Source: a virus
DNA: 34,432 bases
Virus record (IMG/VR): IMGVR_UViG_3300042090_000670
Coordinates: 1-34,432 of that record
Direction: 5' to 3' (one strand)
Part shown: one piece after another, positions 2,467 through 23,763 of the stretch
Layout of the letters: each line of letters opens with the position of its first letter
How positions within the stretch are numbered: position 1 is the stretch's first letter
Position numbers and translations under genes: made by a program
Notes under the pieces: model-generated
The model's input: the letters and a program-made list of their open reading frames with translations, nothing else
What the model was told of the DNA's origin: nothing
Databases searched by the model: none

Positions 2467-3045
2467 ATGCCTACCAAAAATCCTCCCGGACGACCCAGCG
2501 GTTATTCCGCCGAACTGGCCGACGAGATCTGTGCACGCATGAATGAAGGGCGCAGTCTCAAGTCCATCTGCGAAGACGCTGACATGCCGACTCAAAAAAT
2601 GGTCTTCCGCTGGCTTGCGAAAAATGAAACTTTTAGACAGAAATATCGTGCTTGCGCGGAAATCCGGGCCGATGCTCTTCATGAAATCATGCAGTCCACG
2701 GCCCTTACGCCGCTCAACGGAGATATTGTAACTCTTAAAAAAACAAAGGATGGAACTTTTATCGAAAAACGCACCGGGGACAACGTGGAACGCTCCAAAT
2801 TGATTGTGCACACGCTGATGTGGCAGATTGCCCGCATGGCACCTAAGAAATATGGGGATAAGCAGTCGGTTGAATTGGCCGGCAAAGACGGAGGGGACAT
2901 TGGAGTCAGCGTACGCGGAGAAGCTACAAACGCAGTTCGATCAGTCGTTTCCGCTCTTACCAAGGGACGAGCAACTAGCGGTAGCGGCGCGGATGAAGTG
3001 GATAAGCCACGCTCGGGCGGATCAGATCGTCCCGCAGGAACGTGA
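2467..3045 (+). CDS. terS: Terminase small subunit
   Basis: The ATG at 2467 is preferred over an in-frame TTG at 2461. The product is 192 aa. Residues about 7-75 read like the DNA-binding helix-turn-helix domain of Sf6-type small terminases: RPSGYSAELADEICARM, then SLKSICEDADMPTQKMVFRWL, then FRQKYRACAEIRADAL. TerS recognises the packaging site on phage DNA and recruits the large subunit. The C-terminal half (KKYGDKQSVELAGKDGG) also fits the family. Its 3' 146 bases overlap the large-subunit gene in another frame if the TTG start at 2900 is used. This is the first gene of the long rightward operon. Confidence 0.9.
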   Translation: MPTKNPPGRPSGYSAELADEICARMNEGRSLKSICEDADMPTQKMVFRWLAKNETFRQKYRACAEIRADALHEIMQSTALTPLNGDIVTLKKTKDGTFIEKRTGDNVERSKLIVHTLMWQIARMAPKKYGDKQSVELAGKDGGDIGVSVRGEATNAVRSVVSALTKGRATSGSGADEVDKPRSGGSDRPAGT

Positions 3046-4324
3046 CTGGACAACGGTATTCTGGTGCAGTGGACGGGGAGCCGGTAAAACAAAGTCAGCA
3101 GCGGAGGAAACGTGGTGGCAATCCTATACGAATCCCGGCTGGCGCGTCGGCGTTATTGCTCCAACTCATAACGATATCCGGCGCACTTGTTTTGAGGGTG
3201 AGTCCGGGATATTGGCGTGCTGCCCGAATGAGTTAATTGATAATTATAATAAGAGCTTGGCTGAAATTAAGCTAAAGAACGGCAGCATTATTTTTGGCTA
3301 TTCGACCGATACTCCTGAGCGATTGCGGGGCCCAAGTTTTCATCTTTTGTGGAACGAAGAGTTAGCTGCATGGCTTAGGCCGCAGGAAACATGGGACATG
3401 GCGCAATTCTGCCTGCGCCTTGGCGATAGGCCGCGCCAGATCATCACCTCGACGCCTAAGCCAATCGAGCTCGTGCGCAACATTATCGCCGACAAACGCA
3501 CGGTGACAATCCACAGCAGCACATATGCTAACCGCGCCAATTTGCCGAAAAGTTTTTTCGACGAGATTATCAAATATGAAGGCACCGATCTTGGGCGGCA
3601 GGAAATTTACGGACAAGTGCTTGATTTGTCGATGTCGGCCGTCTTTAAGCGCGAATGGTGGAACTGGTGGCCGCATGACAGGCCGTTGCCGCGTTTCGAT
3701 CTTATCATTCAGAGTTACGATACCGCCTACAGCGAAAAACAGACTGCCGATGACACGGCTTGCACGGTGTGGGGTCTATTCAAGGCCACGGAAGGCAGGC
3801 AGGAATATTCGGCGTTGTTGCTCGACTGTTGGGACGACAAGATCGGCTTTCCCGATTTGCGCCAGCGCGTCATCGCCGAATTTTCCACCAAATACGGCCT
3901 TAACGACAAGACGGCGGATGCCGTTCTGTGCGAGGAAAAGGTTAGCGGAATCAGCCTGATACAGGAATTGCGGCGGGCGCAGATACCGACTTACGCCTAC
4001 AATCCCGGCAGTGCCGACAAGCTGCAGCGCGCTCATCTTGTAAGCCATCTGGTATGCAACGGTTATGTATGGCTACCGCAAACCCGCCGCACCGGCCACG
4101 GCGGGGTGCCGCTTAAAGCAACTTGTGACTGGGCGCAGAAGATGTTCGATCAGTTATGCTATTTCGGCCCGGATACGCTGGAAGATGGGAGCAAGAAAGA
4201 CTACGTGGATTCGTTAACCATGTTTTTAAGCTGGATGGCGAAAGCCGGATGGATGAAGAGTGCCGGCATGCTGGAAAAGCAAGGGTACTGGAAAAGACAG
4301 CAAAAAAAGATCGTGTACGGTTGA
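2900..4324 (+). CDS. terL: Terminase large subunit
   Basis: The start is chosen as TTG 2900, which has GGAGGGG just upstream; the frame is open from 2828, so earlier TTG or ATG (2852) starts are possible. The 474-aa product shows the N-terminal signature HARADQIVPQERDW, Walker A GRGAGKT (residues 58-64), a Walker B-like segment FHLLWNEELAAW (147-158) and a C-terminal RNase H-like nuclease. The nuclease has SYDTAYS (D274), the EEKVSGISLIQEL segment near 345 and DYVDSLTMF near 435. It is the ATP-driven motor and nuclease that packages DNA into proheads. The Walker B carries Glu-Glu where Asp-Glu is usual. Length is normal for Terminase_6-like proteins. Confidence 0.96.
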   Translation: MESAYAEKLQTQFDQSFPLLPRDEQLAVAARMKWISHARADQIVPQERDWTTVFWCSGRGAGKTKSAAEETWWQSYTNPGWRVGVIAPTHNDIRRTCFEGESGILACCPNELIDNYNKSLAEIKLKNGSIIFGYSTDTPERLRGPSFHLLWNEELAAWLRPQETWDMAQFCLRLGDRPRQIITSTPKPIELVRNIIADKRTVTIHSSTYANRANLPKSFFDEIIKYEGTDLGRQEIYGQVLDLSMSAVFKREWWNWWPHDRPLPRFDLIIQSYDTAYSEKQTADDTACTVWGLFKATEGRQEYSALLLDCWDDKIGFPDLRQRVIAEFSTKYGLNDKTADAVLCEEKVSGISLIQELRRAQIPTYAYNPGSADKLQRAHLVSHLVCNGYVWLPQTRRTGHGGVPLKATCDWAQKMFDQLCYFGPDTLEDGSKKDYVDSLTMFLSWMAKAGWMKSAGMLEKQGYWKRQQKKIVYG

Positions 4325-4375
4325 CATATAGCGGTATAGATGCGCTTAATGCGGCGTGCTGGGTGGAAAATCCAA

Positions 4376-4621
4376 ATGATCGAACTCAAGCAAACCATCA
4401 ACTCCGAAACCGCCGTCGCAGTCGCGCAAGCCGCACAGAAATGCTCTAACTGCAAATTCTGGATGGTCGATCCACAAAACCTGAAATCAGGATTTTGCCG
4501 CAACAAGCCTCCGTCGGCATTTCCGATCAATACTCAGCAGGGGGTCGTATGGATGGGGCAATTCCCGCCGGTGCAGGAAGCCGCATGGTGCGGCGAGTGG
4601 CGCGGAAAGATGATGCTGTGA
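4376..4621 (+). CDS. Four-cysteine (zinc-ribbon-like) small protein
   Basis: The ATG at 4376 follows GGGTGG at a usable distance; the frame is open further upstream. The 81-aa product has C23-x2-C26 (CSNCKFW), C41 (GFCRNKPP) and C72 (AAWCGEW), a pattern expected to bind zinc. Comparable small proteins follow the terminase in other alphaproteobacterial phages and prophages, without assigned function. The stop codon overlaps the GTG start of the next gene, which indicates translational coupling. Confidence 0.75.
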   Translation: MIELKQTINSETAVAVAQAAQKCSNCKFWMVDPQNLKSGFCRNKPPSAFPINTQQGVVWMGQFPPVQEAAWCGEWRGKMML

Positions 4622-4869
4622 ACGATTTAGTTTCCCTTAACAAGATGCGCGACCAATTCTTGCAAAGACGCGCCCAATTGGAAAACCCCAATTTATCGAA
4701 TGAAGAAGCCGCCAAAATAGAGGCGGATATTATTGCTTTACTGCATGATATCCCAGTAGAAAAACGCCTCCGCGTCAGCGATGCTTTATGGATTGGTCAC
4801 CGCGCAGAACTCATTCATGATATTCTGCACGGTACGAATCTTTGGAATGAACACATGAGACCCGCTTGA
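4618..4869 (+). CDS. Small helical phage protein, 83 aa
   Basis: The GTG at 4618 overlaps the preceding stop (GTGA), with GGAAAGA upstream. The product is a charged, probably helical protein (MRDQFLQRRAQLENPNLS, then EEAAKIEADIIALLHDIP). I recognise no family. Its position between terminase and portal suggests a minor packaging or morphogenesis role, which is inference only. The next gene begins more than 100 bases later. Confidence 0.7.
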   Translation: MNDLVSLNKMRDQFLQRRAQLENPNLSNEEAAKIEADIIALLHDIPVEKRLRVSDALWIGHRAELIHDILHGTNLWNEHMRPA

Positions 4870-4892
4870 CAACTCAATGCGTTGTGGATAAT
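4866..4892 (+). promoter_or_regulatory. Possible promoter before the portal gene
   Basis: TTGACA (4866-4871) is followed 15 bases later by GATAAT (4887-4892). The hexamers are good but the spacer is shorter than the usual 16-18. It lies in the roughly 110-base gap between the 83-aa gene and the portal gene, one of the few true gaps in this operon. Confidence 0.35.
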
Positions 4893-4982
4893 CATCACGC
4901 AATCGCCACTGATTGCTAACGGCTTTCGTCCTGATTGCGATGCGAAAACTGGCGCACAAACCTCACGCTTTGTGTGCTTTCC

Positions 4983-7472
4983 ATGCTCGAAACGAGCGCC
5001 GTTGACGTAAATCCATCTGCCATTGCCACGCCGGTTCCGGACGAAACGCCAAACCCCGATGGCACGACCAGCGTTTTGATCGATGCCGATCTCGCGCCGC
5101 AATCAATGCTGGACGGCGAGTTTTATCAGAATCTAGCTCTTTCTTTGCCGGACGATGCGCTGAATGATCTGGCCGAAAAGTATCTCAATCTTATCGATCA
5201 GGACATAGAGGCCCGCGAAAAACGCGACGAGCAATATGCGGATGGCCTGAAAAAGACCGGCATCGCTGAGCCTGCGCCAGGGGGTGCATCATTCGAGGGA
5301 GCCAGCCGCGCAACGCACCCGGTTCTTGCTGAGGCGTATGTCGATTTCGCAGCTTCCGCCATCAAGGAACTGTTTCCGCCCAACGGCCCCGTAAGGACGA
5401 AAATCGAAGGCAAGCCGAATCGCGACAAGAGCGAGCGCGCCAGGCGCAAGTGCGCCTTTATGAACTGGCAGCTAACGCAGCAAATTCGCGGCTACCGCAG
5501 CGAACTTGAAAAACTGTTGACGCAGCTACCCGCCGGAGGCACGCAATTCCAGAAATTCTGGTGGTCGCCGCTTAAAAATCGCATCAATACGGAATTTGTT
5601 CCGATCGACTATTTTATCCTGCCCTACAACGCCACCAACTTTTCCGACAGCCAGCGCAAGTTTCATCGTCTCGATTTAAGCGAATACGATATGCGGCAAA
5701 AGATCGATGCCGGCGAGTACCGTGATTGGTCGCTCCCGAAGGCAAGCGGCGGCGACATGGAGCCGACGAAAGCCGAAGAGCAAACCGCCAAAATAGAAGG
5801 CAAGGAAGATAACTATAGCGAGGATCGCGACCGTATCGTTTACGAAGGCGTCGTGCAGGAGCAGATCGATGACCCAAAAGCGCCGAAAGATCGGCTTGTT
5901 CCCTATCTCATCACTATAGACCGCGAGACGCGCAATGTGCTGGCGCTCTACCGAGACTGGGATGAGGACGACACGCAGGTTTACGCCGAGCTTGAAAATA
6001 CTGTGGATTATAATTTCATTCCGTGGCGCGGCGCTTACGGCATCGGGCTTGAGCAGCTTATCGGCGGATTGTCTGATGCTTTGACAGGAGCATTGCGCGC
6101 CATTCTCGATTCGGCGCTGATCGCCAACTCCGCGACCGCGATCAAGCTGAAGGGGCCCCCAGGGGGAGCGTCCAACGTCATTGAAATAACGCAGGCCACC
6201 GAAATCGATTCACTCGGTTCCGACGATATCCGCAAAATCGCGATGCCGTTGCCGTTTCCCGGCCCGTCGCCCGTGCTGTTTCAGCTTCTGGGCTTTTTGC
6301 AGGGTGCCGCCAAGGGAGTCGTGACGACCGCCGAGGAAAAGATCGCCGACGCCACCAACAACATGCCGGTCGGCACCGCGATGGCTCTGATCGAGCAGGG
6401 GGCCAAGGTTTTTTCGGCCATACATGCCCGCTTGCATGATAGCCAGCGCCGCGCCTTTGCCATCCTGCACCGGCTCAACGCCAAGCATCTGCCGGAAAAG
6501 TTTCAATACGGCAGCGACCCGGACGATTATATCCTGCGCGCCGATTTCGACGGGCCTATGGATGTCGAGCCGGTTTCCGATCCGAACATATTCAGCGAGA
6601 CCCAGCGCTTCGCCCAGATACAAGCGGTTTTTCAGCAGCTTGTGCAGATGGCGCAAGTAGGCCCCCAGCTTGCTCCGGTGTTGCAGGCGACCGGGGTTAA
6701 TATCCGCGCCCTGATGAAGCGCAGCTTCGAGCAAATGAAATTTCCCAACTATCAGGAAATATTGCCGGATACACCGCAGCCGGTTCCCACCAATCCATGT
6801 GACGAGAATATCGCGCTTGCGACGGGAGGGCCGGTCAAGGCTTTCGAGGGACAGGATCATCAAGCCCACATTCAGGTGCATGCCGACTTCGCAACCAACC
6901 CGATGCTTGGCCTTTCCCCAGCTATGTCACCGCATTACATCGTTGCTGCACTTAATCACGTGCAGGATCATATTTTCACGTTTTATCAGGAGTTGATGAA
7001 GCAGAACGCCGGATTGCCAGCGCAGCCCGACGCCGATAATTCCCCGCAAGCAGCAGAGGCGTTGGCGCGGTCATCGCCAATCGTTCTCAAGGCGCTCGAT
7101 CTTGCTTTCACCAAAATACCTCCGCTGATGCAAGCCGCCGTGCAGCATATGCAGGCGAACGCTCCAAAGCCGCCCCCAGATCCGATGGTGGCGGTGGCTG
7201 CTTCCAACGTGCAGATGCAGGGGCAATTAGGCCAAGCGAAAATCGCGCAGCAGGCGCAATCCGACGCCGCCTCCAGGCAGGAAAAGGCGCAGCAGGCGAT
7301 GCTTGACCATGACGCCGATATTCAGAAATCGCGCATTCAAGCCGCGTCCGAACTGGAAAAGGCAGCGCGCAACAACGACACTGCGATGTGGATTGCGCTT
7401 CTGAAAGAAATGTCCGGCCATGTCACACAGTTGCGGGATGGGTCTTCAACCGAAAACAGCCCGAAGGAGTAA
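4983..7472 (+). CDS. Portal protein (podovirus type)
   Basis: The ATG at 4983 gives 829 aa. The frame is open from a TTG at 4935, and no clear ribosome site precedes either start, so the N-terminus is uncertain. The N-terminal part has ASFEGASRATHPVLAEAY and then AASAIKELFPPNGPV, which I recognise from large portal proteins of podovirus-like phages. The middle contains VPIDYFILPYNATNF and TAIKLKGPPGG. The C-terminal roughly 120 residues are Gln/Ala-rich and probably coiled coil (QQAQSDAASRQEKAQQAMLD). The portal forms the dodecameric DNA channel at one capsid vertex and docks the terminase and later the tail. Position directly after terminase and before scaffold and capsid supports the call. 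Confidence 0.9.
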   Translation: MLETSAVDVNPSAIATPVPDETPNPDGTTSVLIDADLAPQSMLDGEFYQNLALSLPDDALNDLAEKYLNLIDQDIEAREKRDEQYADGLKKTGIAEPAPGGASFEGASRATHPVLAEAYVDFAASAIKELFPPNGPVRTKIEGKPNRDKSERARRKCAFMNWQLTQQIRGYRSELEKLLTQLPAGGTQFQKFWWSPLKNRINTEFVPIDYFILPYNATNFSDSQRKFHRLDLSEYDMRQKIDAGEYRDWSLPKASGGDMEPTKAEEQTAKIEGKEDNYSEDRDRIVYEGVVQEQIDDPKAPKDRLVPYLITIDRETRNVLALYRDWDEDDTQVYAELENTVDYNFIPWRGAYGIGLEQLIGGLSDALTGALRAILDSALIANSATAIKLKGPPGGASNVIEITQATEIDSLGSDDIRKIAMPLPFPGPSPVLFQLLGFLQGAAKGVVTTAEEKIADATNNMPVGTAMALIEQGAKVFSAIHARLHDSQRRAFAILHRLNAKHLPEKFQYGSDPDDYILRADFDGPMDVEPVSDPNIFSETQRFAQIQAVFQQLVQMAQVGPQLAPVLQATGVNIRALMKRSFEQMKFPNYQEILPDTPQPVPTNPCDENIALATGGPVKAFEGQDHQAHIQVHADFATNPMLGLSPAMSPHYIVAALNHVQDHIFTFYQELMKQNAGLPAQPDADNSPQAAEALARSSPIVLKALDLAFTKIPPLMQAAVQHMQANAPKPPPDPMVAVAASNVQMQGQLGQAKIAQQAQSDAASRQEKAQQAMLDHDADIQKSRIQAASELEKAARNNDTAMWIALLKEMSGHVTQLRDGSSTENSPKE

Positions 7473-7475
7473 CAA

Positions 7476-7634
7476 ATGTCTGGAGAACGAGAATTTTATG
7501 ATAAAAAAGAACCAATTAACCAAAAGTCCGACGAGGAACTGAAAAAAGTTCTCGCCGAAGAGAAAACAAAAACCGATAGCGATAAGCCGGTTTTTAGCGA
7601 AGACGACCCAACACAAACAGGAGAAACGGCATGA
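7476..7634 (+). CDS. Small acidic phage protein, 52 aa
   Basis: The ATG at 7476 has AAGGAGT ideally spaced upstream (7464-7470). The product is highly charged (SDEELKKVLAEEKTKTD) and likely disordered or helical. No family is recognised. The stop overlaps the next start (ATGA), so it is part of a coupled chain of tiny genes between portal and co-chaperonin. Confidence 0.72.
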   Translation: MSGEREFYDKKEPINQKSDEELKKVLAEEKTKTDSDKPVFSEDDPTQTGETA

Positions 7635-7726
7635 GCGAAGAAATGAACGCCCAGAATACCAACCAGCATAAACTTTTGGCGATGGGCAAGAAAACTCCGC
7701 AGCAAAAAGGCGGCAAGAAGAAGTGA
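7631..7726 (+). CDS. Tiny basic phage protein, 31 aa
   Basis: The ATG at 7631 is preceded by AGGAGA, and it overlaps the stop of the gene before and the GTG start of the gene after. The product ends in a lysine-rich tail (QQKGGKKK). No function can be assigned. Good ribosome site and coupling on both sides are the only support. Confidence 0.6.
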   Translation: MSEEMNAQNTNQHKLLAMGKKTPQQKGGKKK

Positions 7727-7899
7727 GACCAGAACGCATCGTCCACAAGCTGACGCAGCGCCGGGAAGCGATGCAAAAGGCTGTTTTCGAGCGCAACATT
7801 TCGAACGAAGAGTTGAAGCGGCTGCAAGGCATCTGGGAAGGTCTCGGGGAGGCCATCGCGATGATCGGCGAGGATTTGAAGGAGAATGACGATGGTTGA
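7723..7899 (+). CDS. Small helical phage protein, 58 aa
   Basis: The GTG at 7723 overlaps the preceding stop (GTGA). The product is a single-domain helical protein (IVHKLTQRREAMQKAVFER, then EELKRLQGIWEGLGEAIAM). No family is recognised. Its stop overlaps the start region of the co-chaperonin gene, which uses the AAGGAG inside this gene as its ribosome site. Confidence 0.65.
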   Translation: MRPERIVHKLTQRREAMQKAVFERNISNEELKRLQGIWEGLGEAIAMIGEDLKENDDG

Positions 7900-8359
7900 G
7901 CTGAAGCCACTTAAGATTATGCCGCTTAAGGTTACCGATGCCGAGAGGGTTGCGCAGGCATTCCCGGAAATCGATCCGCAATTCAGGCCTCTCGGCCATA
8001 AGCTCATCGTGCAATTGCGTTCGCCCGTCACTTTCAAAAACGGCATTCATTTGCCGGACGAGACTGTCGAGACAGAAAAGTGGAATACGCAAATAGGACG
8101 CGTTAGGGATATTGGGCCAGTGGCGTTCCGTAACCGGGATACCCTTAAGGAATGGCCCGAAGGCGCATGGTGCAAGATTGGCGATTATGTCCGGGTTCCC
8201 AAATACAATCAGGATCGATGGGAGATCATCCATGAGGCCGAGGAAGCCATGCACCTTGGCTATGAAAAGAAGCGGTGGGTTTTGTTCATGCTGGTTAGCG
8301 ACATCGATTTGCTTGGCGTAAAGACCGGCAACCCGCTCGACGTGAAGGCTTACATCTAG
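7892..8359 (+). CDS. GroES-like co-chaperonin
   Basis: Of two in-frame ATGs (7886, 7892), the second has AAGGAG at proper spacing. The 155-aa product has a Cpn10-type core: PLGHKLIVQLRSPVTFKNGI, LPDETVE, QIGRVRDIGPVAF and then CKIGDYVRVPKYNQDRW, ending VSDIDLLGV. This matches the GroES plan (conserved start of the barrel, mobile-loop region, I-G-V strand, K-x-GD-x-V strand) although it is longer than the host protein (about 95 aa). Such proteins pair with GroEL to fold phage structural proteins, as T4 gp31 does for its capsid protein. Location just upstream of scaffold and capsid fits that role. Confidence 0.75.
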   Translation: MVELKPLKIMPLKVTDAERVAQAFPEIDPQFRPLGHKLIVQLRSPVTFKNGIHLPDETVETEKWNTQIGRVRDIGPVAFRNRDTLKEWPEGAWCKIGDYVRVPKYNQDRWEIIHEAEEAMHLGYEKKRWVLFMLVSDIDLLGVKTGNPLDVKAYI

Positions 8360-8369
8360 GAGGAAACAA

Positions 8370-9395
8370 ATGGTTGATTTACCTGAAGACGCCCCCAATA
8401 CAATCGTTCTCAACAAAATTCGTGTGAGCGATGAATCGCAAAACGCGCCCGATGAAGCTGACGATAAGGAAGGAGACGCGCCTGACTACGAAATTGTCGA
8501 GGATAAGGGTGAAGCCCAGACATCGCCAGCCGAAGACCGGGCGCAGCAGAGGGACGAGCGCGACGAACGGTTGGGGCGCAAGCGTGATGAGGACAGGCCA
8601 AAACTCAGCAATCGCGAACGGCGTCATTTGCGCAAGGAAAACCTGCGCAAGAAAATCGACGCCAAGGATGGCTTGATACGGCAGCTTCAGGAAGAAAACG
8701 CCCAAATCAAGAACATCGTCGGCAATCTCGACGGCAGGATCGCCAATCTCGATCAGGCCCAATTCACCACGGCATGGAACGAAGCGGTTTCATCTTTTCA
8801 GGATGCGGAAAAACAGCATATTGAGGCGTTCGGGGAGGCGGATGCGGCCAAGGCGACTGAGGCCATGCGCAAGATGTATAACGCGCAGAAGCGCATCGAC
8901 GAACTGGATGCCATCAAGCAACGAGCGGCGCAGCAGGCTCAGCCGCGCCAGCAACCGCAAGCCAATCCCCGCGTTACATCCAAAGCGCAAGAGTGGGCGG
9001 CGAGGAACGCATGGTTCGATCCAGCCGAAAGCGACGACGACAGCGCCGTGGCGAACGTCATTGCCGCCAAGATAGCCAAAGAAGGGTACGATCCGGCAAC
9101 CGACGATTATTGGGATGAATTGGACGAACGGTTGCAGGCGCGCGGCATCGGTAAGCCGGACGATGAGGGGGGAGATGACGAAGCAGCCAGGCCCGCACCA
9201 CGCAAGCGCGTCTCGCCTCCCGTAAGCGGAGGTGGCGGCCGCCATGATTTGCCGAACGGCAAGGTGCAGATTTCATTGCCGACGGCCTATATCGATAATC
9301 TCAAGCAGGCCGGGATGTGGGATGACGTAGACAAGAGAAATAAAATGATTAAAAAATATCTCGACGGCATCAAGAACCGGGAGGCGGCGGAATGA
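8370..9395 (+). CDS. Putative scaffolding protein
   Basis: The ATG at 8370 follows AGGAGG. The 341-aa product begins with an acidic, low-complexity region (about 20-80), then a basic coiled coil (RRHLRKENLRKKIDAKDG, then IRQLQEENAQIKNIV, about 85-120), a Gln-rich hinge (about 190-205), and an ordered C-terminal part (QEWAARNAWFDPAESDDD, later YIDNLKQAGMWDDVDKRNKM). This build and the place between portal and capsid are those of podovirus scaffolding proteins, which fill the prohead and are later removed. No protease domain is visible. The gene overlaps the next start (ATGA). Confidence 0.78.
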   Translation: MVDLPEDAPNTIVLNKIRVSDESQNAPDEADDKEGDAPDYEIVEDKGEAQTSPAEDRAQQRDERDERLGRKRDEDRPKLSNRERRHLRKENLRKKIDAKDGLIRQLQEENAQIKNIVGNLDGRIANLDQAQFTTAWNEAVSSFQDAEKQHIEAFGEADAAKATEAMRKMYNAQKRIDELDAIKQRAAQQAQPRQQPQANPRVTSKAQEWAARNAWFDPAESDDDSAVANVIAAKIAKEGYDPATDDYWDELDERLQARGIGKPDDEGGDDEAARPAPRKRVSPPVSGGGGRHDLPNGKVQISLPTAYIDNLKQAGMWDDVDKRNKMIKKYLDGIKNREAAE

Positions 9396-9646
9396 AAGAC
9401 ATTTATCGTCTTACGCTTCAGATGCCGGACGGCAAGGAAGTAAGCTGCAAATGCACGCCGAATGGAATCGGCAGCTTTATCGCGCCGCAGGATTTCGAGG
9501 CGATTGACGCAAGGCAGCGGCAGCCGTTTCTTTTCGCGCTGCGCAAAAAATACGACGTGATCGGCACGGCTGCCGACGGATTCCGCGTTTTTCAACCGAG
9601 AGAGAGGAAGTTCGAACATGGCAAAGCTGACAACAAGGGCGCGTAA
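9392..9646 (+). CDS. Small phage protein, 84 aa, unknown
   Basis: The ATG at 9392 overlaps the scaffold stop and has GGAGGCGG upstream. The product starts with a predicted beta hairpin (YRLTLQMPDGKEVSCKC) and has the segment FEAIDARQRQPFLFALRKKYDVI. I do not recognise a family. Its last 29 bases overlap the next gene in another frame. Confidence 0.68.
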   Translation: MKDIYRLTLQMPDGKEVSCKCTPNGIGSFIAPQDFEAIDARQRQPFLFALRKKYDVIGTAADGFRVFQPRERKFEHGKADNKGA

Positions 9647-9830
9647 TAAACTGCCGAAGTCCTCATTTGCGGGGCCGGGGCGCAGCTATCCGGTTAATGA
9701 CAAATCCCATGCCAGAAATGCCCTTGCCCGCGCATCGCAGATGGTGAAAGCCGGGAAACTGTCCCCGTCGGCAGCGGCGAAAATTCGCGCGAAAGCTGAT
9801 CGCAAGTTAGGGCGCAAAAGAGATGAATGA
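9618..9830 (+). CDS. Conserved small basic phage protein, 70 aa
   Basis: The ATG at 9618 follows AGAGAGGAAG. The product has a pattern I know from many phages: ARNKLPKSSFAGPGRSYPV, then DKSHARNALARASQMVKAGKL, ending in a Lys/Arg-rich tail (KADRKLGRKR). The role is unknown; it may be a minor virion or DNA-associated protein. It overlaps both neighbours and so is expected to be co-translated. Confidence 0.78.
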   Translation: MAKLTTRARNKLPKSSFAGPGRSYPVNDKSHARNALARASQMVKAGKLSPSAAAKIRAKADRKLGRKRDE

Positions 9831-10119
9831 TGTTTCGTTTCCGCGCGTGCGATCCGTGCGGCTAAAAAGCGGCGGCGCTAAATTATACATTTACCGTAAT
9901 AACAGAGCGCAGGAATTTGCGTCCAGTTACCGGCGTCAGGCAGCCGGTGTTTATGATCGAAGAAAGAATGATATGGGCGGTTATGCTATCGTAGCCTGGA
10001 GTTTTGATGGTAATACCTCGTGCGTCATAGGTGGGGACGGCACCCATGTTTCAAGGCATAAAGTGGCTGATTTTGTAAAAACCGTAATTCAGGATTATTT
10101 TTATGGAGGAGATATGTGA
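9823..10119 (+). CDS. Small phage protein, 98 aa, unknown
   Basis: The ATG at 9823 overlaps the preceding stop. The product contains GGYAIVAWSFDGNTSCVIGGDG and SRHKVADFVKTVIQDY in its second half; similar small proteins occur in other phage genomes as hypotheticals. No catalytic motif is evident. Base composition here is slightly more AT-rich than in neighbouring genes. GGAGGA near its 3' end serves the next gene. Confidence 0.68.
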   Translation: MNDVSFPRVRSVRLKSGGAKLYIYRNNRAQEFASSYRRQAAGVYDRRKNDMGGYAIVAWSFDGNTSCVIGGDGTHVSRHKVADFVKTVIQDYFYGGDM

Positions 10120-10859
10120 CCGATTTGCCCCGCGTTCTCATAGCCACCCCATGCAAGGATGGGCGCGTTGACGTGAATTACGCCGTGTGCCTTGCCGCCA
10201 CTACGCAAGTGCTGCGCAGCGCCGGGATCGTTTACGAAACCGCGCATATCTGCACGTCCAGCATCGACAGCGCCCGCAATATTCTGGCGACGCTATTCGT
10301 GCGCGGAAGCTGCTCGCACATGCTTTTCATCGACGATGATGTTGTGTGGGCCGCCGATTTGCCGTTGCGCATGCTGAATGAAAATGTCGATATCGTCGGC
10401 GTTCCCTACCGCAAGAAAATAAAGCGGCCGGAATACACGATCAAGCATCCGCGCAATGTCGGCTCGCTGGGGGGGCGTCATTGGATGATATTGGCCGAAG
10501 GTCTCGGCATGGGCATGACTCTGATCCGGCGCAACGTGTTCGAAGGATTGATTCCGAAAGTGCCGCTTTATCATTGCTTCGGCGGCGAAGAGGACAAGCC
10601 GCAGCATCTGTTTTTCCGTCATGAACTCGTGACGGATACCGACGGGAAATTGAAATACGAGTCCGAAGATTTTCATTTCTGCCGTTTGGCGAGGGAGAAC
10701 GGCTTCGAGCTTTTCGCCTATATCGACGAGAACTTGCCGCATGTCGGACGCTGCATTTTCGACGGTCCTTACAACATGCAGATCAATGGCGGGATTCCGC
10801 ACGGCTTTACCGGGGAACGCGAACGATTGCCGGTGATCGTGACGGGAGTGGAGGGCTAA
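10116..10859 (+). CDS. Glycosyltransferase-like (GT-A fold) protein
   Basis: The GTG at 10116 follows GGAGGA and overlaps the stop before it. The 247-aa product opens with a Rossmann-like strand (PRVLIATPCKDGRVDVNYA) and has CTSSIDSARNILATLF followed by MLFIDDDVVWAADLP (DDD at 73-75). This is the nucleotide-sugar and metal-binding signature of GT-A glycosyltransferases. The region YESEDFHFCRLARENGFELFAY near 190-215 fits the usual ED acceptor-site motif. Likely a sugar transferase acting on a virion protein or on host surface glycan; the substrate cannot be read from the sequence. It lies between small structural genes and the capsid gene, next to a methyltransferase. Confidence 0.75.
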   Translation: MTDLPRVLIATPCKDGRVDVNYAVCLAATTQVLRSAGIVYETAHICTSSIDSARNILATLFVRGSCSHMLFIDDDVVWAADLPLRMLNENVDIVGVPYRKKIKRPEYTIKHPRNVGSLGGRHWMILAEGLGMGMTLIRRNVFEGLIPKVPLYHCFGGEEDKPQHLFFRHELVTDTDGKLKYESEDFHFCRLARENGFELFAYIDENLPHVGRCIFDGPYNMQINGGIPHGFTGERERLPVIVTGVEG

Positions 10860-11446
10860 TGCCCGAATTTACAAAAGACTGGTTTTCTCACAACATCCCC
10901 GTATGGCGAGACCTTGTATTGCCGCGAAAACCGCAAAGCGTGCTTGAAATAGGCTCTTTTGAGGGAATGTCGGCGTGCTACCTGCTCGAAAACCTCAACC
11001 CTCTGCATATTGTTTGCGTCGATAGCTGGGAAGGTAGCGACGATATAAATTTTACTGACATGAATGGCGCGGAAGATCGTTTTGACCGCAACACGGAGAA
11101 GTTCCTGGCGCCGGGTAAATGTTTGAGGAAACTAAAAGGCCTTTCCCGTGAAATGCTGCCGCGTCTTTTGACTGAAGGGAGGGGATTCGATCTCGCTTAC
11201 ATCGACGGCTCTCATCAAGCGCCGGATGTTTTGAGCGATGCGGTGATGGCGTTTTATCTACTAAAGATCGGCGGCATGATGATTTTCGACGACTATATCT
11301 GGCAGAACAGGGTGGCCGGCGAACAGGATCATTACCGCATGCCGAAACCGGCAATCGACACGTTTCTCAATATCTTCCAGCGCAAAATGATTGTCATTCC
11401 GCAGGTTCCGCTCTATCAGTTATTCGCGGTAAAAACACATGCTTGA
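10859..11446 (+). CDS. Class I SAM-dependent methyltransferase
   Basis: The ATG at 10859 overlaps the preceding stop (TAATG). The 195-aa product has motif I as VLEIGSFEGMSACYLLE (28-44), an acidic strand end IVCVDSWEG (about 51-59), and DLAYIDGSHQAPDVLSDA (about 111-128) followed by GGMMIFDDY. This is the layout of Methyltransf_24-type enzymes often found beside glycosyltransferases and acting on sugars or small molecules. Together with the preceding gene it may modify a glycan. The 3' end overlaps a promoter-like -35 element (11443-11448). Confidence 0.85.
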   Translation: MPEFTKDWFSHNIPVWRDLVLPRKPQSVLEIGSFEGMSACYLLENLNPLHIVCVDSWEGSDDINFTDMNGAEDRFDRNTEKFLAPGKCLRKLKGLSREMLPRLLTEGRGFDLAYIDGSHQAPDVLSDAVMAFYLLKIGGMMIFDDYIWQNRVAGEQDHYRMPKPAIDTFLNIFQRKMIVIPQVPLYQLFAVKTHA

Positions 11447-11471
11447 CAGAATTTGAAATCTGTGAGATAAA
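11443..11471 (+). promoter_or_regulatory. Sigma70-type promoter before the capsid gene block
   Basis: TTGACA (11443-11448) and GATAAA (11466-11471) are separated by 17 bases. They lie at the end of the methyltransferase gene and in front of a gap of about 110 bases before the next start at 11560. It could raise expression of the decoration and major capsid genes. The -10 overlaps the left arm of an inverted repeat. Confidence 0.55.
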
Positions 11472-11484
11472 TCGCTCTCACAGA
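11459..11484. promoter_or_regulatory. Perfect 9-bp dyad overlapping the promoter -10
   Basis: TCTGTGAGA (11459-11467) and TCTCACAGA (11476-11484) form a perfect inverted repeat around an 8-base centre. The repeat covers the -10 hexamer and the likely start site, so it could be an operator for a dimeric repressor or a hairpin at the 5' end of the message. It is not followed by a T-run and so is not a normal terminator. Confidence 0.55.
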
Positions 11485-11559
11485 GGCCAGTGCGTCTTTT
11501 GGGCGCTTAACCTCCAGCTTGCGTCTCGCTTGCTTACCCCAACGGCCAAAGGGTTTAGC

Positions 11560-12138
11560 ATGACAGACGCATCAACTCCTCACACCGACGAACGTATCGC
11601 GAGACGTGCGCAGTCTTCGCAGAGCCGCGCCAGTCGTCCGGAACGCGCGGCGACCGAGGATCGCGAGACTTCCGATACGATCAGGCGTGAGGAGCGGAAT
11701 TCCATGCTGCGCGACGTGAACACGCTACTGCCGGTTCCTCCGCAAATTCCCGGCTACCACCTCTGCTATCTCACCACCACCAACCAGAAAGACTCGCTCG
11801 AATACCGCTTTCGCGTGGGATACGAGCTTGTCAAGCCATCGGAACTTCCCGGCTTCGCGCCAGCGCAGAAGGCCGGTGAAGCGAGTTCCGACCGCATCAT
11901 GGTGAACGAGATGGTGCTGGCGAAGATTCCACACGACATCTGGGAATCGGACATGAAATACCTTCATCACGATCTGCCGCTCGAACAGATTCAAGCGCTC
12001 AAGAGCCGTGTGCACGTCGGCGAGGACGGCAAGGGAAATCCGCTTGGTTATACCGGCGGCGAGTTCAAGAACGGGGTGTCTGACGGATACGCGCAACTCG
12101 GCAGAGTGCGTGCGCCGTCTTTCGCGGGAATTGCTTAA
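11560..12138 (+). CDS. Conserved structural-module protein, 192 aa
   Basis: The ATG at 11560 with AAAGGG upstream is preferred; the frame is open to 11443 but the extension would run through the promoter and dyad. The N-terminal roughly 50 residues are charged and low in complexity (RAQSSQSRASRPERAATEDR). The rest looks folded: LLPVPPQIPGYHLCYLTTTN, then YRFRVGYELVKPSELPGF and MVNEMVLAKIPHDIWESDM. I recall similar proteins upstream of capsid genes in podovirus-like phages; their function is not known to me. A minor capsid or assembly role is inferred. Confidence 0.72.
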   Translation: MTDASTPHTDERIARRAQSSQSRASRPERAATEDRETSDTIRREERNSMLRDVNTLLPVPPQIPGYHLCYLTTTNQKDSLEYRFRVGYELVKPSELPGFAPAQKAGEASSDRIMVNEMVLAKIPHDIWESDMKYLHHDLPLEQIQALKSRVHVGEDGKGNPLGYTGGEFKNGVSDGYAQLGRVRAPSFAGIA

Positions 12139-12155
12139 CACAGGGAGAATGGCTT

Positions 12156-12746
12156 ATGTCGGCTACGCTTAACGGATACGGCCTTCGGCCCGCCTACAGC
12201 CCGCAGGGCATGGCGGCGGCGCGGCGCTACGATTACGGCATCGCCTCCGGCTACGGTACCGGCATTCTAAAATATCAGCCGGTCGCCCTTAACAGCAGCG
12301 GGCAGCTTATTGCCGCCACTGCCGCCGCAGATTTTCTCGGCGTCTTCGCCGGAGTTACCTATTTCGACAGTTCCGGCATTCCGCATTCCTACGATCAATG
12401 GATCGCCGGCACAACTTATGAATCCACCAATCTCATGTACGTTTATGTGTGGGACGATCCGAACGAGGTGTTCCAGATTCAGGCGGATGGATCGCTCGCC
12501 CAAAGCATCGGTGGGCAGGTGGATTTTACGTCGGCCACCATCGGCAGTGGTTCAACCGTCGTCGGCCTTTCGACCTGCACCGCATCGGCGTCGTCGCTGA
12601 CGACTTCGGGCCAGAAACAGCTTCGCATCGTCGAGCTTGCGCCTTCGCCCGCCATGAACGGCGTCAATGCGTGGGGAGATGCCTACACGGAAGTTCGCGT
12701 GATGATCGCTCGCAGCCAGTACATTGCCAACAAGGTGGCCGTGTAA
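12156..12746 (+). CDS. Putative capsid decoration protein
   Basis: The ATG at 12156 follows AGGGAGA. The 196-aa product starts NGYGLRPAYSPQGMAAARRY, includes LKYQPVALNSSGQLIAA and FLGVFAGVTYFDSSG, then VFQIQADGSLAQSIGGQVDF, and ends AWGDAYTEVRVMIARSQYI. This beta-rich, secreted-like composition without catalytic motifs matches small proteins encoded directly before the major capsid gene in Bcep22-like and related podophages. A decoration or head-stabilising role is likely from position and recalled family. Confidence 0.7.
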   Translation: MSATLNGYGLRPAYSPQGMAAARRYDYGIASGYGTGILKYQPVALNSSGQLIAATAAADFLGVFAGVTYFDSSGIPHSYDQWIAGTTYESTNLMYVYVWDDPNEVFQIQADGSLAQSIGGQVDFTSATIGSGSTVVGLSTCTASASSLTTSGQKQLRIVELAPSPAMNGVNAWGDAYTEVRVMIARSQYIANKVAV

Positions 12747-12775
12747 TCGGGAGCAGCTAACAGGGAGCAAAGACA

Positions 12776-13699
12776 ATGGCCACAAATATTATGAGAAATA
12801 CCGACTTCCGGAGTATCGTCGAGCCGATACTCAACGAGGAGTTCGACGGCGTTTACGATCAGCGCAAGGACGAATATCTGCAGGTGTTCAAGGTCAAGAC
12901 CGGCATTCCGCGCGACCGTCACGAAGAGCCAGTTCTGTTCGGTTTCGGGGCTGCGCCCGAGCTTCCCGAAGGCATGCCGGTCACCTACCAGGCTGGCGGC
13001 GTTCTGTTCCTGAAGGAGTATTTTTACAAGCGCTACGGACTTGCGTTCGCCCTGACTTCAACGCTGATCGAGGACGGCGACCATATCCGCATCGGCTCGG
13101 TCTATTCGCAGCATCTGGCGCAGTCCTTGATCGAAACCAAGGAAGATTTGTGCGTCAGTGTTATCAACACCGCCTTCAGTTCGTCCTATCCGGGTGGCGA
13201 CGGCGTTTCGTTCGGCAACTCAGCACATCCCATTGCGGTCGGCACTACAAGCAATATACTGGCAACTTCCTCCGCGCTCTCGCAGACCTCTGCCGAGCAG
13301 ATGCTGATTACGGTTCGCGCCAATGGCGTCGATAACAACAACAAGAAAATCCATCTGGAGCCGTCGAGCCTGATCGTCGCTCCTGCCAACGAGTTTCAGG
13401 GCGAAGTGATCGTGAAATCGGTTCTTCGTTCCGGCACGGCCAACAACGACCTCAACGCCATCAAGTCGCGCGGTTACCTATCGAAGGGCGTTGCGGTGTT
13501 TACCCGCATGACCTCGGCCACGCAATGGGGCGTTCATAACTCGAACGTGCCATTCGGCATGCAGGTCGTAATGCGCAAGGCGCTCAAGAAAAGCATGGAG
13601 GGCGATTTCGAGACCGACTCATGGCGCTATAAGGCGATTGAGCGGTACGATGTCGGGTTCACTGATTGGCGCTCTGCCTTTTGGACGCCGGGGTCATAG
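12776..13699 (+). CDS. Major capsid protein (HK97-like fold expected)
   Basis: The ATG at 12776 follows AGGGAGC. The 307-aa product has the features of a family of podophage and Mu-like head proteins: SQHLAQSLIETKEDLCVSVI (about 110-130), HLEPSSLIVAPANEFQGEVI, SVLRSGTANNDLNAIKSRG and a C-terminal YKAIERYDVGFTDWRSAF. These conserved positions (SGTANND, ERYDVGFTD) are diagnostic in my recollection. It forms the icosahedral shell with the scaffold gene about 3.4 kb upstream. No N-terminal delta domain long enough for proteolytic removal is obvious. Confidence 0.92.
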   Translation: MATNIMRNTDFRSIVEPILNEEFDGVYDQRKDEYLQVFKVKTGIPRDRHEEPVLFGFGAAPELPEGMPVTYQAGGVLFLKEYFYKRYGLAFALTSTLIEDGDHIRIGSVYSQHLAQSLIETKEDLCVSVINTAFSSSYPGGDGVSFGNSAHPIAVGTTSNILATSSALSQTSAEQMLITVRANGVDNNNKKIHLEPSSLIVAPANEFQGEVIVKSVLRSGTANNDLNAIKSRGYLSKGVAVFTRMTSATQWGVHNSNVPFGMQVVMRKALKKSMEGDFETDSWRYKAIERYDVGFTDWRSAFWTPGS

Positions 13700-13712
13700 A
13701 TCGTTATTTATC

Positions 13713-13730
13713 AATGACTTAACAGTCATT
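13713..13730. promoter_or_regulatory. Perfect 7-bp inverted repeat after the capsid gene
   Basis: AATGACT (13713-13719) and AGTCATT (13724-13730) flank TAAC. The hairpin sits in the 45-base gap between the capsid gene and the next ribosome site (CGGGAG). There is no T-run, so termination would be weak. An mRNA stabilising or processing hairpin that sets high capsid expression is an alternative. Confidence 0.45.
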
Positions 13731-13744
13731 CGGGAGTAAGTAAA

Positions 13745-14470
13745 ATGCCCTTGCAAGATGACACTTATCTAGCCTGTAACGATGTCGCTGTTCAGGGCGG
13801 CGTTAATGCCGGGGCCGTCACCACTGGCGTCGGGCCAGTGGGTCGGGTATTCGTTTACGATATTGTTCCCCTTGCGCTTCTGGCCAATAACCTTGCCACA
13901 TCGCAATCTCCCGGCACCGCCGCGTTGACGTTGGCGGCAGGAACCGGCGTAACCACGGCGACGGTGAACGGCCAGACTGTGTTGCAGCTTGACGTTCCGC
14001 GCATCCTGCGGTTTGTGTCGGGCGGAAACGACACGGGCATTACCTTCAATGTGGTCGGCTACGATTTTTACGGGCAGCCGATGCACGAGAACGTCACCGG
14101 AGCCTCGAACAGCACGGCATCGGGCGCAAAGGCATGGTGGCAGGTTCTGTCGATTACGCCGAGCGCCGGCGTGTCCTCGACCATTACCGTGGGGACTGGG
14201 GATGTGTTCGGATTGCCGTTCTACCTGAAAGATAAAACCTACGCCTTGGGCGTTCAGTGGAACAATACGCTGGCAAAGGATACGGGGACGCTGACGACTG
14301 GCGTCACGACAACGCCAAGCGCGACGACCGGGGACGTGCGCGGAACATATGCCCCCTCGACTGGCGCATCCGACGGCACCAAGCGCCTTGTCTTCGCCCA
14401 GATAATTTCGGCTGCCCAGACCGGGGCGAGCGCAACGCGCTCGGCTATTCTCGGCGCAACGCAATTCTAG
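13745..14470 (+). CDS. Virion-type protein, first of two tandem paralogues
   Basis: The ATG at 13745 follows CGGGAG. The 241-aa product is rich in Thr, Ala and Gly, as expected for a beta-sandwich surface protein. Segments shared with the next gene include GPVGRVFVYDI, SGGNDTGITFNVVGYDFYGQPM and GDVRGTYAPSTGASDGTKRL. No enzyme motif is seen. Position right after the major capsid gene suggests a head fibre, decoration or head-tail protein; I do not know a named family. Confidence 0.75.
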   Translation: MPLQDDTYLACNDVAVQGGVNAGAVTTGVGPVGRVFVYDIVPLALLANNLATSQSPGTAALTLAAGTGVTTATVNGQTVLQLDVPRILRFVSGGNDTGITFNVVGYDFYGQPMHENVTGASNSTASGAKAWWQVLSITPSAGVSSTITVGTGDVFGLPFYLKDKTYALGVQWNNTLAKDTGTLTTGVTTTPSATTGDVRGTYAPSTGASDGTKRLVFAQIISAAQTGASATRSAILGATQF

Positions 14471-14479
14471 GATGAACCC

Positions 14480-15253
14480 ATGACGCAATTCTCCGACGAT
14501 CTCTACCTCGGCAACGCCAATTTCGGTCAATCAACCCAGGGATTTCCAAATTTCGGCTTCGGGCGCCAGGCGTTTCCGTTCGGGTATGGCGGCATCGGTC
14601 TAGGCCCGATGGGGCGGTTTTTCTATTACGATATTCAGCCCCTAACGAAGAACGCCACGGCTCTTGCGGCCTCGCAGACGCCTGGTTCGTCGGCGCTGAC
14701 GCTCTCGGCCGGCACTGGCGTTACGGCTGTGACCGATCCGACCGGAACCGTTCGTTATACATTCGATGTGGCGCGCTGTGTCACCGTGACAAGCGGCGGC
14801 AACGATACGGGGATCAATTTCCTCATCAAGGGTTATGACATTTACGGCCAGCCGATGTCGCAGGCGCTCACCGGCGCATCGGGCGCGGCTGCGACCACAA
14901 CCAAGGCTTTTTACAGCGTTACCTCAATAACGCCATCAGGCGCAGTGGCGACTACTGCTACTGCCGGTTCTGCGGATATATTCGGGCTGCCTGTCGCTCT
15001 AACCAACGGCGTCTATATGGCCAGCGTGAAATGGGGAACGGCCATCACTACTCTTGGCAACGACACCGGCACCTTGGTAGTGGCCGATGCGACCAATCCG
15101 GCAACCACCACCACGGGCGACGTGCGCGGCACCTACGCGCCAAGCGGGGCTTCTGACGGAACCAAGAGATTGATTCTTTCCCAGATCACGCCCGCAACTC
15201 AATGCGGCCCAACGGCAACGGTTGCCGCCATTCTCGGACAGGCACAGGTTTAG
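14480..15253 (+). CDS. Virion-type protein, second of two tandem paralogues
   Basis: The ATG at 14480 begins 10 bases after the previous stop. The 257-aa product aligns with the preceding protein over most of its length: GPMGRFFYYDI, SGGNDTGINFLIKGYDIYGQ and GDVRGTYAPSGASDGTKRL. Its N-terminus differs, being Gly/Phe-rich (FPNFGFGRQAFPFGYGG, about 22-38). The pair most likely arose by tandem duplication and then diverged, perhaps to occupy two sites on the virion. No catalytic residues are evident. Confidence 0.75.
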   Translation: MTQFSDDLYLGNANFGQSTQGFPNFGFGRQAFPFGYGGIGLGPMGRFFYYDIQPLTKNATALAASQTPGSSALTLSAGTGVTAVTDPTGTVRYTFDVARCVTVTSGGNDTGINFLIKGYDIYGQPMSQALTGASGAAATTTKAFYSVTSITPSGAVATTATAGSADIFGLPVALTNGVYMASVKWGTAITTLGNDTGTLVVADATNPATTTTGDVRGTYAPSGASDGTKRLILSQITPATQCGPTATVAAILGQAQV

Positions 15254-15787: not shown

Positions 15788-16885
15788 GTGAGCACAAGCG
15801 GAACCGTATCCCAGACCGTCATTCTGGTGAAAGATATCATCGAGCAGGCCGCGCGGCGCTGCGGACGGCTGCCGGGTTCGCTTAATTCCGAAGAACTGTT
15901 CACCTCGAGAACGAATCTTTACCTGATCCTGTCGTCGCTGTGCAATCGCGGCGCGCCGCTATGGACGGTCGAGAAGATCGTTCTCGGCCTCAATCTTCTG
16001 CAAAACCTTCTGGTTTTTCCGGCCGGCACCATTGATCTGCGGACGGTTCTGTACCGCTATAATGTGTTGCCTTCTGGCGGTACCGCATCCTCAAGCGCTG
16101 GAGGTAACGCCGCTAACGCTTTCGACCAGAACCTTGCAACCGCCTGCGCACAGACGGCGCCGAATGGAAATATCAGCTATAATTTTGGCCAGCAGGTCAC
16201 GATACCGACGGTCGGTTTTCTTCCTGCGGCAACACTGACTCTTAACCCGGTTTATGAATGGTCGAATGATGGATTGACGTGGACGGAAATCGCTCAGGCC
16301 TCCACCGGGGGCGGAACGACCGGCACGTTTGGCAGTGGCACCTATGAGCAGGGCGTGTGGTACTGGCAGGATATTCCGCAGCCTGTCTCGGCCCAATACT
16401 GGCGCCTGCGCGAAACAGGCGGCGGAACGCTGAATATTACCGAGCTTGTGTTCGGCCAGCCCGCAAACGAAATAACCGTCGCCCGCAGCAACGCAGATGA
16501 TTACCAGAATTTGCCGAACAAGAATATCGTCTCCGGCAACCAGCGCCCCTTGCAATACTGGTTCGACCGCCAGATCGTCCCGCAGGCGTGGCTATGGCCG
16601 CCCAGCGGGTATTCCTTCAATACCTTGATCTGCTGGGCGCGCAGGCAGATTCAGGATGTCGGCACGTTTACCAATCAATTGGAAATTCCTGATCGATGGA
16701 CTGATGCGATTATTTGGGCTTTGGCCGAGGCCTGTTCGCATGAATTTCAGGGAGTGCAGTTGCAGCGCATTCCGCTGATCGCCCAAAAATCGGCGCAGGC
16801 GCAGCAATTGGCTTGGACGGAAGAGCGCGATAATTCGCCCGTGCTATATGAAGTCAACCTTACGCCTTATACGAGGAGCCGATAA
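15788..16885 (+). CDS. Tail/connector protein with inserted discoidin-like domain
   Basis: The GTG at 15788 follows GGAG. The 365-aa protein has two parts. The outer part (about 1-92 and 226-365) matches podophage connector or tail proteins: LPNKNIVSGNQRPLQYWFDR, then IQDVGTFTNQLEIPDRW and DAIIWALAEACS. Residues about 95-225 form a beta-sandwich resembling F5/8 type C (discoidin, galactose-binding-like) domains: AFDQNLATACAQTAPNGNIS, YEWSNDGLTWTEI and SAQYWRLRETGGGTLNITEL. The inserted domain could bind glycans at the head-tail joint or be structural. It is followed without gap by the next gene. Confidence 0.75.
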   Translation: MSTSGTVSQTVILVKDIIEQAARRCGRLPGSLNSEELFTSRTNLYLILSSLCNRGAPLWTVEKIVLGLNLLQNLLVFPAGTIDLRTVLYRYNVLPSGGTASSSAGGNAANAFDQNLATACAQTAPNGNISYNFGQQVTIPTVGFLPAATLTLNPVYEWSNDGLTWTEIAQASTGGGTTGTFGSGTYEQGVWYWQDIPQPVSAQYWRLRETGGGTLNITELVFGQPANEITVARSNADDYQNLPNKNIVSGNQRPLQYWFDRQIVPQAWLWPPSGYSFNTLICWARRQIQDVGTFTNQLEIPDRWTDAIIWALAEACSHEFQGVQLQRIPLIAQKSAQAQQLAWTEERDNSPVLYEVNLTPYTRSR

Positions 16886-23283: not shown

Positions 23284-23358
23284 CCCCCTCTCTCCGAAAG
23301 CTCTGTCGGCCACGCACGGGCAGATAATCGGGCATTCAACGAATGCTTGGATTGTCGC

Positions 23359-23763
23359 ATGAATTCCTACCGCTGGCGCATCGCATCGGAGAGCGATTTT
23401 ATTCCTATCTACAATCTGATTTACGCATCGCCCCATCGCGCGAAATGGGACATGGCGGAGATACGCCGCCGCGTGCTGCGGCCGCTGTTTCTCGAACAGA
23501 TCATCGTATTCCTGCGCGGCGCTGATATTTGCGGCTTTCTGACTTTTGCGTTCATGGATCGAAAATCTGGCGCGCATCAGGCAACCGGCGGAATCGAAGA
23601 CGGCGACTGGAGATCCGGCAACAATCCCTGGATCGTGGACTTTTTCTGCGACCGCGACGGGCTGCGGATTCTGGCGCGGCTGCGCGCCGACTTCCGCAAC
23701 GCAATAAAGACACCGATTCGTTACTGGCGCGTCAAACATAAGCAAATCAGGAGAATGACATGA
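23359..23763 (+). CDS. HlyC-like toxin-activating lysine acyltransferase
   Basis: The ATG at 23359 gives 134 aa; a TTG at 23347 would add four residues, and the ribosome site is weak for both. The sequence follows the HlyC/ApxC pattern: YASPHRAKW (H26) corresponds to SPLHRNW of HlyC, VLRPLFLEQIIVFLR to the following strand, GFLTFAFM to the central strand, and DWRSGNNPWIVDF (D94) to DWTSGDRKWFIDW. The known catalytic pair of HlyC is His23 and Asp92, 69 residues apart; here the spacing is 68. These enzymes (GNAT fold) move a fatty acyl chain from acyl-ACP to lysines of RTX pore-forming toxins. No RTX toxin is in the window; the stop overlaps the start of a hydrophobic virion protein, a possible substrate. 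At 134 aa it is shorter than HlyC (about 170). Confidence 0.82.
   Translation: MNSYRWRIASESDFIPIYNLIYASPHRAKWDMAEIRRRVLRPLFLEQIIVFLRGADICGFLTFAFMDRKSGAHQATGGIEDGDWRSGNNPWIVDFFCDRDGLRILARLRADFRNAIKTPIRYWRVKHKQIRRMT

Follow-up and report, generated by a model that had tools for sequence, protein, structure and literature searches.

A glycosyltransferase and O-methyltransferase gene pair inserted in the head operon of an IMG/VR virus: a candidate unit for methyl-capped glycans

The head operon of the virus record IMGVR_UViG_3300042090_000670 contains a gene pair encoding a GT-A glycosyltransferase of the PHROG 1574 type (GT; 10116-10859, + strand) and a Methyltransf_24 or class I O-methyltransferase (MT; 10859-11446, + strand). 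We propose that the two form a two-step glycan unit, in which a sugar would be transferred and then capped by O-methylation, most likely on a virion protein, a reading to which we give about an even chance of being correct. The two-step unit is supported by an intact GT-A fold with its DxD motif, an intact O-methyltransferase fold, the overlap of the two genes and their recurrent pairing in other viruses, and a virion protein is suggested as the target by the place of the genes in the head operon, by the presence of such GTs among the structural genes of related phages and by the precedent of the Cluster O mycobacteriophages. Throughout, the window is the whole stretch of DNA analysed, that is, positions 1 to 34,432 of the record (34,432 bases).

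Gene order and insertion site

On the + strand the head operon comprises, in this order, genes for terminase, portal, a GroES-like protein, a scaffold-like protein, three small proteins, the GT, the MT, two capsid-block proteins and the major capsid protein. The last of these (12776-13699, +) was recognised as PHROG 371, major head protein, and by its matches to annotated capsid proteins of named phages, and it is preceded by the capsid-block gene g196 (12156-12746, +). No DNA nearly identical to positions 2500-14500 of the window was found in named phages. The scaffold-like gene (8370-9395, +), whose homologue precedes that of g231 in the 71 relatives in which both were found, marks the left border of the inserted stretch, and g231 (11560-12138, +) marks the right one. 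The latter is listed with a TTG start at 11443 that overlaps the MT stop; because homology to the relatives begins some 46 codons in (about codons 46-50 of the listed frame), the ATG at 11560 is the probable true start and the overlap of MT and g231 may not be real. The first-pass annotation had put the two enzymes between scaffold-linked small genes and the capsid block, which is where they lie (small genes at 9392-10119, capsid block from about 11560), and had described overlapping starts, which is correct for the GT, whose GTG start overlaps the previous stop by 4 bases, and for the MT, whose ATG start overlaps the GT stop by 1 base, and is doubtful for the third overlap only.

The three small genes are scarcely represented among the relatives. 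The first, s84 (9392-9646, +), lies within the inserted stretch and has a weak homologue in the relative L002 (31%, E 0.001), none being found in a larger search of the relatives at 1e-3; its position is occupied by frames of 75 and 80 aa in L002 and in a further relative, L003. The second, s70 (9618-9830, +), belongs to PHROG 16160 (E 6e-29), of unknown function, and has a 59% identical homologue in L002 that was not found in the other 83 relatives, while s98 (9823-10119, +), directly 5' of the GT and of low GC (0.461), had no homologue found among the relatives. Outside the inserted stretch, the GroES-like gene (7886-8359, +), 5' of the scaffold gene, gave a weak Cpn10 match below the cut-off and accompanies the scaffold gene in 64 of 82 related loci; an IS1595/ISXO2-type transposase gene (1234-2178, -) lies upstream of the terminase gene on the opposite strand; and a protein encoded after the capsid block (15788-16885, +) weakly resembles the F5/8 type C (discoidin-like) family, its 27.2 bits falling just short of the cut-off (28.2).

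For comparison we assembled 84 related head-operon loci, namely the best 80 of at least 594 capsid-protein relatives, two loci found through the GT (L002 and L003) and two named phages. In the 71 loci measured, the scaffold gene is separated from the next gene by at most 196 bases (median 43, aligned ends), and the distance from the scaffold gene to g231 is 2,348 bases in L002 and 2,164 in L003 (aligned ends) and 2,047 in the window (listed frames). The GT occurs in two of the 84 loci, L002 and L003, and no locus has the MT; the cassette is present in none of the 82 loci not found through the GT, 11 of which lack one border and thus provide no test of the insertion site. It is likewise absent from L005, the closest other relative by capsid protein (84%). 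The GT-MT cassette in the head operon is an insertion. The slot after the GT is differently filled in the three carriers: the window has the MT, and L002 and L003 have in its stead a second glycosyltransferase, in L002 a protein of 279 aa with a match to a glycosyltransferase PHROG (E 5e-7; GT-GT) and in L003 a 248-aa family-2 enzyme (E 5e-9; GT-GT2).

The restriction, as far as seen, of the insertion at this site to the window, L002 and L003 would also fit a passenger (moron) cassette lodged where the head operon tolerates extra genes, with enzymes that act separately, the MT for example on a small molecule or a tRNA. We hold this to be improbable, as all three clade members found have retained the GT in one position, and elsewhere enzymes of the two types turn up again both as neighbours and as one open frame.

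Predicted activities of the two enzymes

The GT frame (247 aa) is preceded by the Shine-Dalgarno-like GGAGGAG (10105-10111, +) and matches PHROG 1574 over residues 6-212 (E 2.1e-18). No Pfam family, Anp1 included, was matched by the window GT in the profile scan, and it is therefore not filed as GT62; of the 46 aligned members of the GT family, 41 match Anp1 with an E of at most 0.05 (lowest 1e-6). Its predicted model (mean pLDDT 84.9) has as top solved fold match STIV A197 (PDB 2c0n; Z 17.7 over 163 residues, rmsd 2.4, 20% identity), tied with LH3 (Z 17.2) and followed by Mnn9 (15.3) and mimivirus R699 (15.2). A197 is also the best match of the GT profile among solved structures, with a whole-sequence E of 5.5e-4 and a best single stretch that is not significant. 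In the 46-row alignment D73, D75, D185 and H209 are invariant and E184 is nearly so. Model and alignment thus place the protein in GT-A by both fold and metal-binding DxD, in agreement with the initial description of a GT-A-like protein with a DDD motif, which corresponds to residues 73-75 and includes the invariant D73 and D75. The enzyme looks catalytically intact, and sugar transfer is its predicted activity. In PMC10551542, A197 is presented as an essential viral GT-A enzyme that possibly glycosylates the STIV capsid protein.

The MT (195 aa, with GGAGGG upstream) proved, as first annotated, to be Methyltransf_24-like (Pfam 63.7 bits against a cut-off of 26.3). Its predicted model (mean pLDDT 91.1) matched metal-dependent O-methyltransferases at Z 17.6-20.1 among the 50 matches listed, including the sugar enzymes MeT1 (Z 19.3 over 182 residues), a sugar 1-O-methyltransferase according to PMC9883506, and MycF (Z 17.7 over 164), a sugar 3'-O-methyltransferase. 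Because the fold matches catechol, caffeoyl-CoA and tRNA (TrmR) methyltransferases equally well, we only infer a sugar acceptor for the MT, and the match to TrmR is a point in favour of a passenger enzyme acting apart from the GT. D116, H119, D144 and D145 are invariant in all 54 rows of the MT alignment, and D116, D144 and D145 align with the metal-binding IDAD and DN motifs of O-methyltransferases of solved structure. H119 was compared with the residue spacing of MycE. A histidine base is described for this sugar enzyme in PMC9539859. With the residues of its SAM and metal sites kept, the MT looks catalytically intact and is predicted to be active. Since both genes have relatives in many virus records and both folds are confident, neither is a chance open frame.

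The first-pass annotation had counted a third group-transfer enzyme in the same structural operon, an acyltransferase. The GT and the MT do belong there, but the HlyC-type acyltransferase gene (23347-23763, +; PF02794, E 4e-10) lies 12 kb downstream, outside the cassette; it was found in one of 19 relatives, L002, which is also a GT carrier, and we found no other link between it and the GT-MT pair.

Pairing of the two families and origin of the MT

No viral relative of the MT was recovered by a single-sequence pattern search. A profile search for viral MT loci was evaluated for its best 80 of 272, and a PHROG 1574-like GT was present in 73 of these 80, always on the same strand (73 of 73) and within 1.5 kb in 72. 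The motifs used to collect these MTs came from two that are paired with a GT, so that paired loci are favoured, and the set includes overlapping loci and near-copies. When it was thinned at 90, 70 and 50% identity, the GT accompanied 37 of 43, 23 of 28 and 5 of 8 MT representatives, respectively. Either gene may come first (MT in 38 pairs, GT in 35), the gap is at most 4 bases in 34 of the 73, and in the locus L111 one open frame of 439 aa (5759-7078) matches both profiles, that of the MT weakly (E 1e-11). Seen from the GT side, an MT occurs in 27 of 80 loci (the best 80 of more). A literature search returned no paper on such a pair among the matches listed, from which we claim no absence.

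No PHROG 1574-like GT was found within up to 6 kb on either side of the MT in 80 bacterial loci (the best 80 of more). In four of these (L248, L249, L256 and L268) the MT directly follows a gene of one cluster, two scanned members of which (L248 and L268) are OGT-like GT41 enzymes, and most of the other bacterial loci showed no glycan genes on inspection. The bacterial context of the MT therefore draws its support from few loci and is not a rule.

The surroundings of the viral pairs are mostly of replication type. Four gene clusters, judged by eye to encode DNA polymerase, exonuclease, helicase and RusA, were present in 92 of the 98 loci with both enzymes, in 15 of the 53 with the GT only and in one of the seven with the MT only. 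Likewise, among 116 scanned neighbours (out of 143) of GT representatives, exonuclease PHROGs were the best represented (10, 9 and 8 members), with 3 members each for virion structural and tail PHROGs. Only 5 of 158 GT or MT loci contained homologues of other proteins of the window. Given the 92 of 98 pair loci with replication-type genes, a place in the capsid operon is by itself weak evidence for virion proteins as the target.

The nearness of most pairs to DNA polymerase-like, exonuclease, helicase-like and RusA genes, together with the DNA glycosylation by phage GTs that is established in the literature, could point to the modification of phage DNA bases, with a sugar placed on a hydroxymethylated base and then a methyl group. 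This is very improbable. Among 40 contigs with the GT, the MT or both, which were hand-picked and mostly long, the thymidylate-synthase fold (PF00303) was found in none and Tet/JBP (PF12851) in one, and both families were absent from all five of the window, L002, L003, L005 and L329, many of the records, the window among them, being fragments. DNA hypermodification was accordingly set aside as unsupported, no base-hydroxylating family having been found in the 40 contigs save that one Tet/JBP gene. The exception, the Tet/JBP-type gene of L247 (G011:C1:13939-14346), lies on a 71-kb virus contig together with a PHROG 1574 GT and is possibly a separate DNA-modifying case.

In a careful tree of MTs, built without four long rows (B_L286, B_L298, V_L154 and B_L287), the 38 other viral MT rows fall on one side of a branch (support 99/98) that leaves out the window MT and V_L169, and the nearest rows to the window MT are bacterial. 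Constraining it to group with the viral MTs costs 13.2 log units and is not rejected (p-AU 0.2), and no starred branch fixes its exact place. The MTs of L178, L238 and L216 had appeared on the bacterial side by FastTree only; the careful tree puts them on the viral side, and we make no claim for them. The GC content of the MT (0.491) differs from that of most of its neighbours, the GT having 0.559 and the window 0.549. The tree position of the MT leads us to favour a pair that was probably reassembled in the window's head-operon clade rather than inherited whole, and GC points the same way. An MT of deviating GC that groups with bacterial rather than viral pair MTs, a grouping not statistically settled, would suit a passenger gene as well.

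Candidate acceptors and parallels in known viruses

In the proposed pathway, the GT would take a sugar from a host nucleotide-sugar and transfer it to an acceptor, and the MT would then methylate a hydroxyl of the added sugar and so cap it; in L002 and L003 the second GT would extend the glycan in place of the methyl cap. The host would need to supply the sugar donor, since no nucleotide-sugar enzyme was found among 32 window proteins scanned with Pfam or the ten scanned of the 80 open frames of the L002 genome. The pair most likely decorates a head or tail protein of the virion before or during assembly, the acceptor being the least certain step. A comparison of the capsid protein and two neighbouring proteins revealed no Ser/Thr-rich or GT-specific tail, and the capsid protein of L005, which has no GT, is as similar (84%) as the capsid proteins of GT carriers.

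Besides L002 and L003, at least six other phages related to that of the window have the GT family among their structural genes. L329 (capsid protein 32%) encodes a 38% identical GT between portal and capsid-block genes on the same strand, and in L004 a methyltransferase and a PHROG 1574 GT lie just 3' of the capsid gene. On the same strand as their structural neighbours, the GT is about 1 kb 3' of the capsid gene in L128, just 5' of the homologue of g255 in L157 (capsid protein 62%) and 3' of that homologue in L153, and in L172 an MT follows the capsid gene by about 0.7 kb with the GT 5 kb further on, past the g255 homologue. In L158 the GT is upstream of the homologues of g118 and g255, all on one strand. 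The window GT makes up a single clade with those of L002, L003 and L329 (FastTree 1.0), outside which L172 groups with L153 (0.984) and L128 with L158 (0.945), so that the structural-gene GTs of the other phages span at least three GT lineages (FastTree; the L157 GT is absent from this tree). A single entry of the GT into the head operon was dropped as an explanation, structural-gene GTs being found outside the window clade in L172, L153, L128, L158 and L004. These structural-gene GTs raised our estimate for a virion target from just under an even chance to an even one and slightly lowered that for the host surface.

In the latter reading, the pair would act during infection on a glycan of the host surface (LPS O-chain, capsule or S-layer sugar) and, for example, stop progeny from binding to debris or exclude a second phage. 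Phage GTs of such a role are mentioned in PMC12619734 and PMC10202952, some bacterial relatives of the MT stand beside glycosyltransferases, and most loci with both enzymes hold replication-type rather than structural genes. However, expression from a late head operon would be late for a receptor change, no membrane segment was seen on inspection of the GT, and no lipid-carrier or flippase family was found among the 32 window proteins scanned. We consider this reading rather unlikely; a virion protein is the most likely target of the two. The earlier proposal of modified virion proteins is partly sustained by same-family GTs among structural genes and by the Cluster O parallel, but has against it the prevalence of replication-type genes around the pair, and a heavily modified virion is possible.

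A close parallel in gene arrangement is that of the Cluster O mycobacteriophages (Corndog gp35-gp38, Firecracker gp33-gp36), in which an O-methyltransferase of the TylF/Methyltransf_24 type and GTs are encoded by overlapping head-operon genes; by gene order against Firecracker, the window too has GT and O-methyltransferase genes inside the head operon. Corndog virions carry glycans. The authors of the Cluster O work propose that the capsid is modified with methyl groups and glycans, and virion glycosylation in phages is reported elsewhere from mycobacteriophages. The two systems differ in host and in place, the Cluster O block lying between the portal and capsid protease genes and that of the window between the scaffold gene and the capsid block. 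They also differ in their enzymes: the Cluster O GTs belong to PHROGs 4447, 1721 and 854 and gave no significant match to the window GT or its profile (hhalign E 0.063, 0.39 and 0.75, with single sequences limiting sensitivity), and the Cluster O MT matched that of the window at a pairwise E of 0.047 and a profile E of 0.006 (probability 6%).

Other viruses offer partial likenesses. STIV A197 resembles the window GT in fold and as its best profile match, and is viral and possibly active on a capsid protein, but it is only 20% identical, comes from an archaeal virus and has no methyltransferase partner mentioned in the portion of PMC10551542 at hand. In chlorovirus PBCV-1, the virus-encoded A064R couples the transfer of sugar to a later O-methylation of the terminal sugar in a capsid glycan (PMC7019647); it differs in being one three-domain protein (GT-GT-MT) of an algal virus, and we liken it by description only. 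The aquatic phage MW202753.1 has the same two families side by side (GT 28% and MT 39% identical to those of the window), after a RusA-type gene and on the strand opposite an endosialidase-chaperone gene, with no capsid gene annotated in the part seen, and its MT falls among the other viral ones and away from that of the window.

A wider reading, which we put forward tentatively and regard as unlikely to hold in full, is that a GT-MT capping unit of aquatic phages was assembled more than once, beside replication genes in many viruses and, in the head-operon clade, by the joining of a GT of structural operons to an MT of bacterial type, and would lay short methyl-capped glycans on virion proteins as an environmental protection. 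The analysis provides a likely role for PHROG 1574, now listed as of unknown function, and offers a concrete pair of enzymes to express. The recurrence in uncultured aquatic viruses of a unit of GT and O-methyltransferase, in which the window GT has no significant sequence match to the mycobacteriophage GTs tested, would suggest that methyl-capped phage glycans are commoner than is now known.
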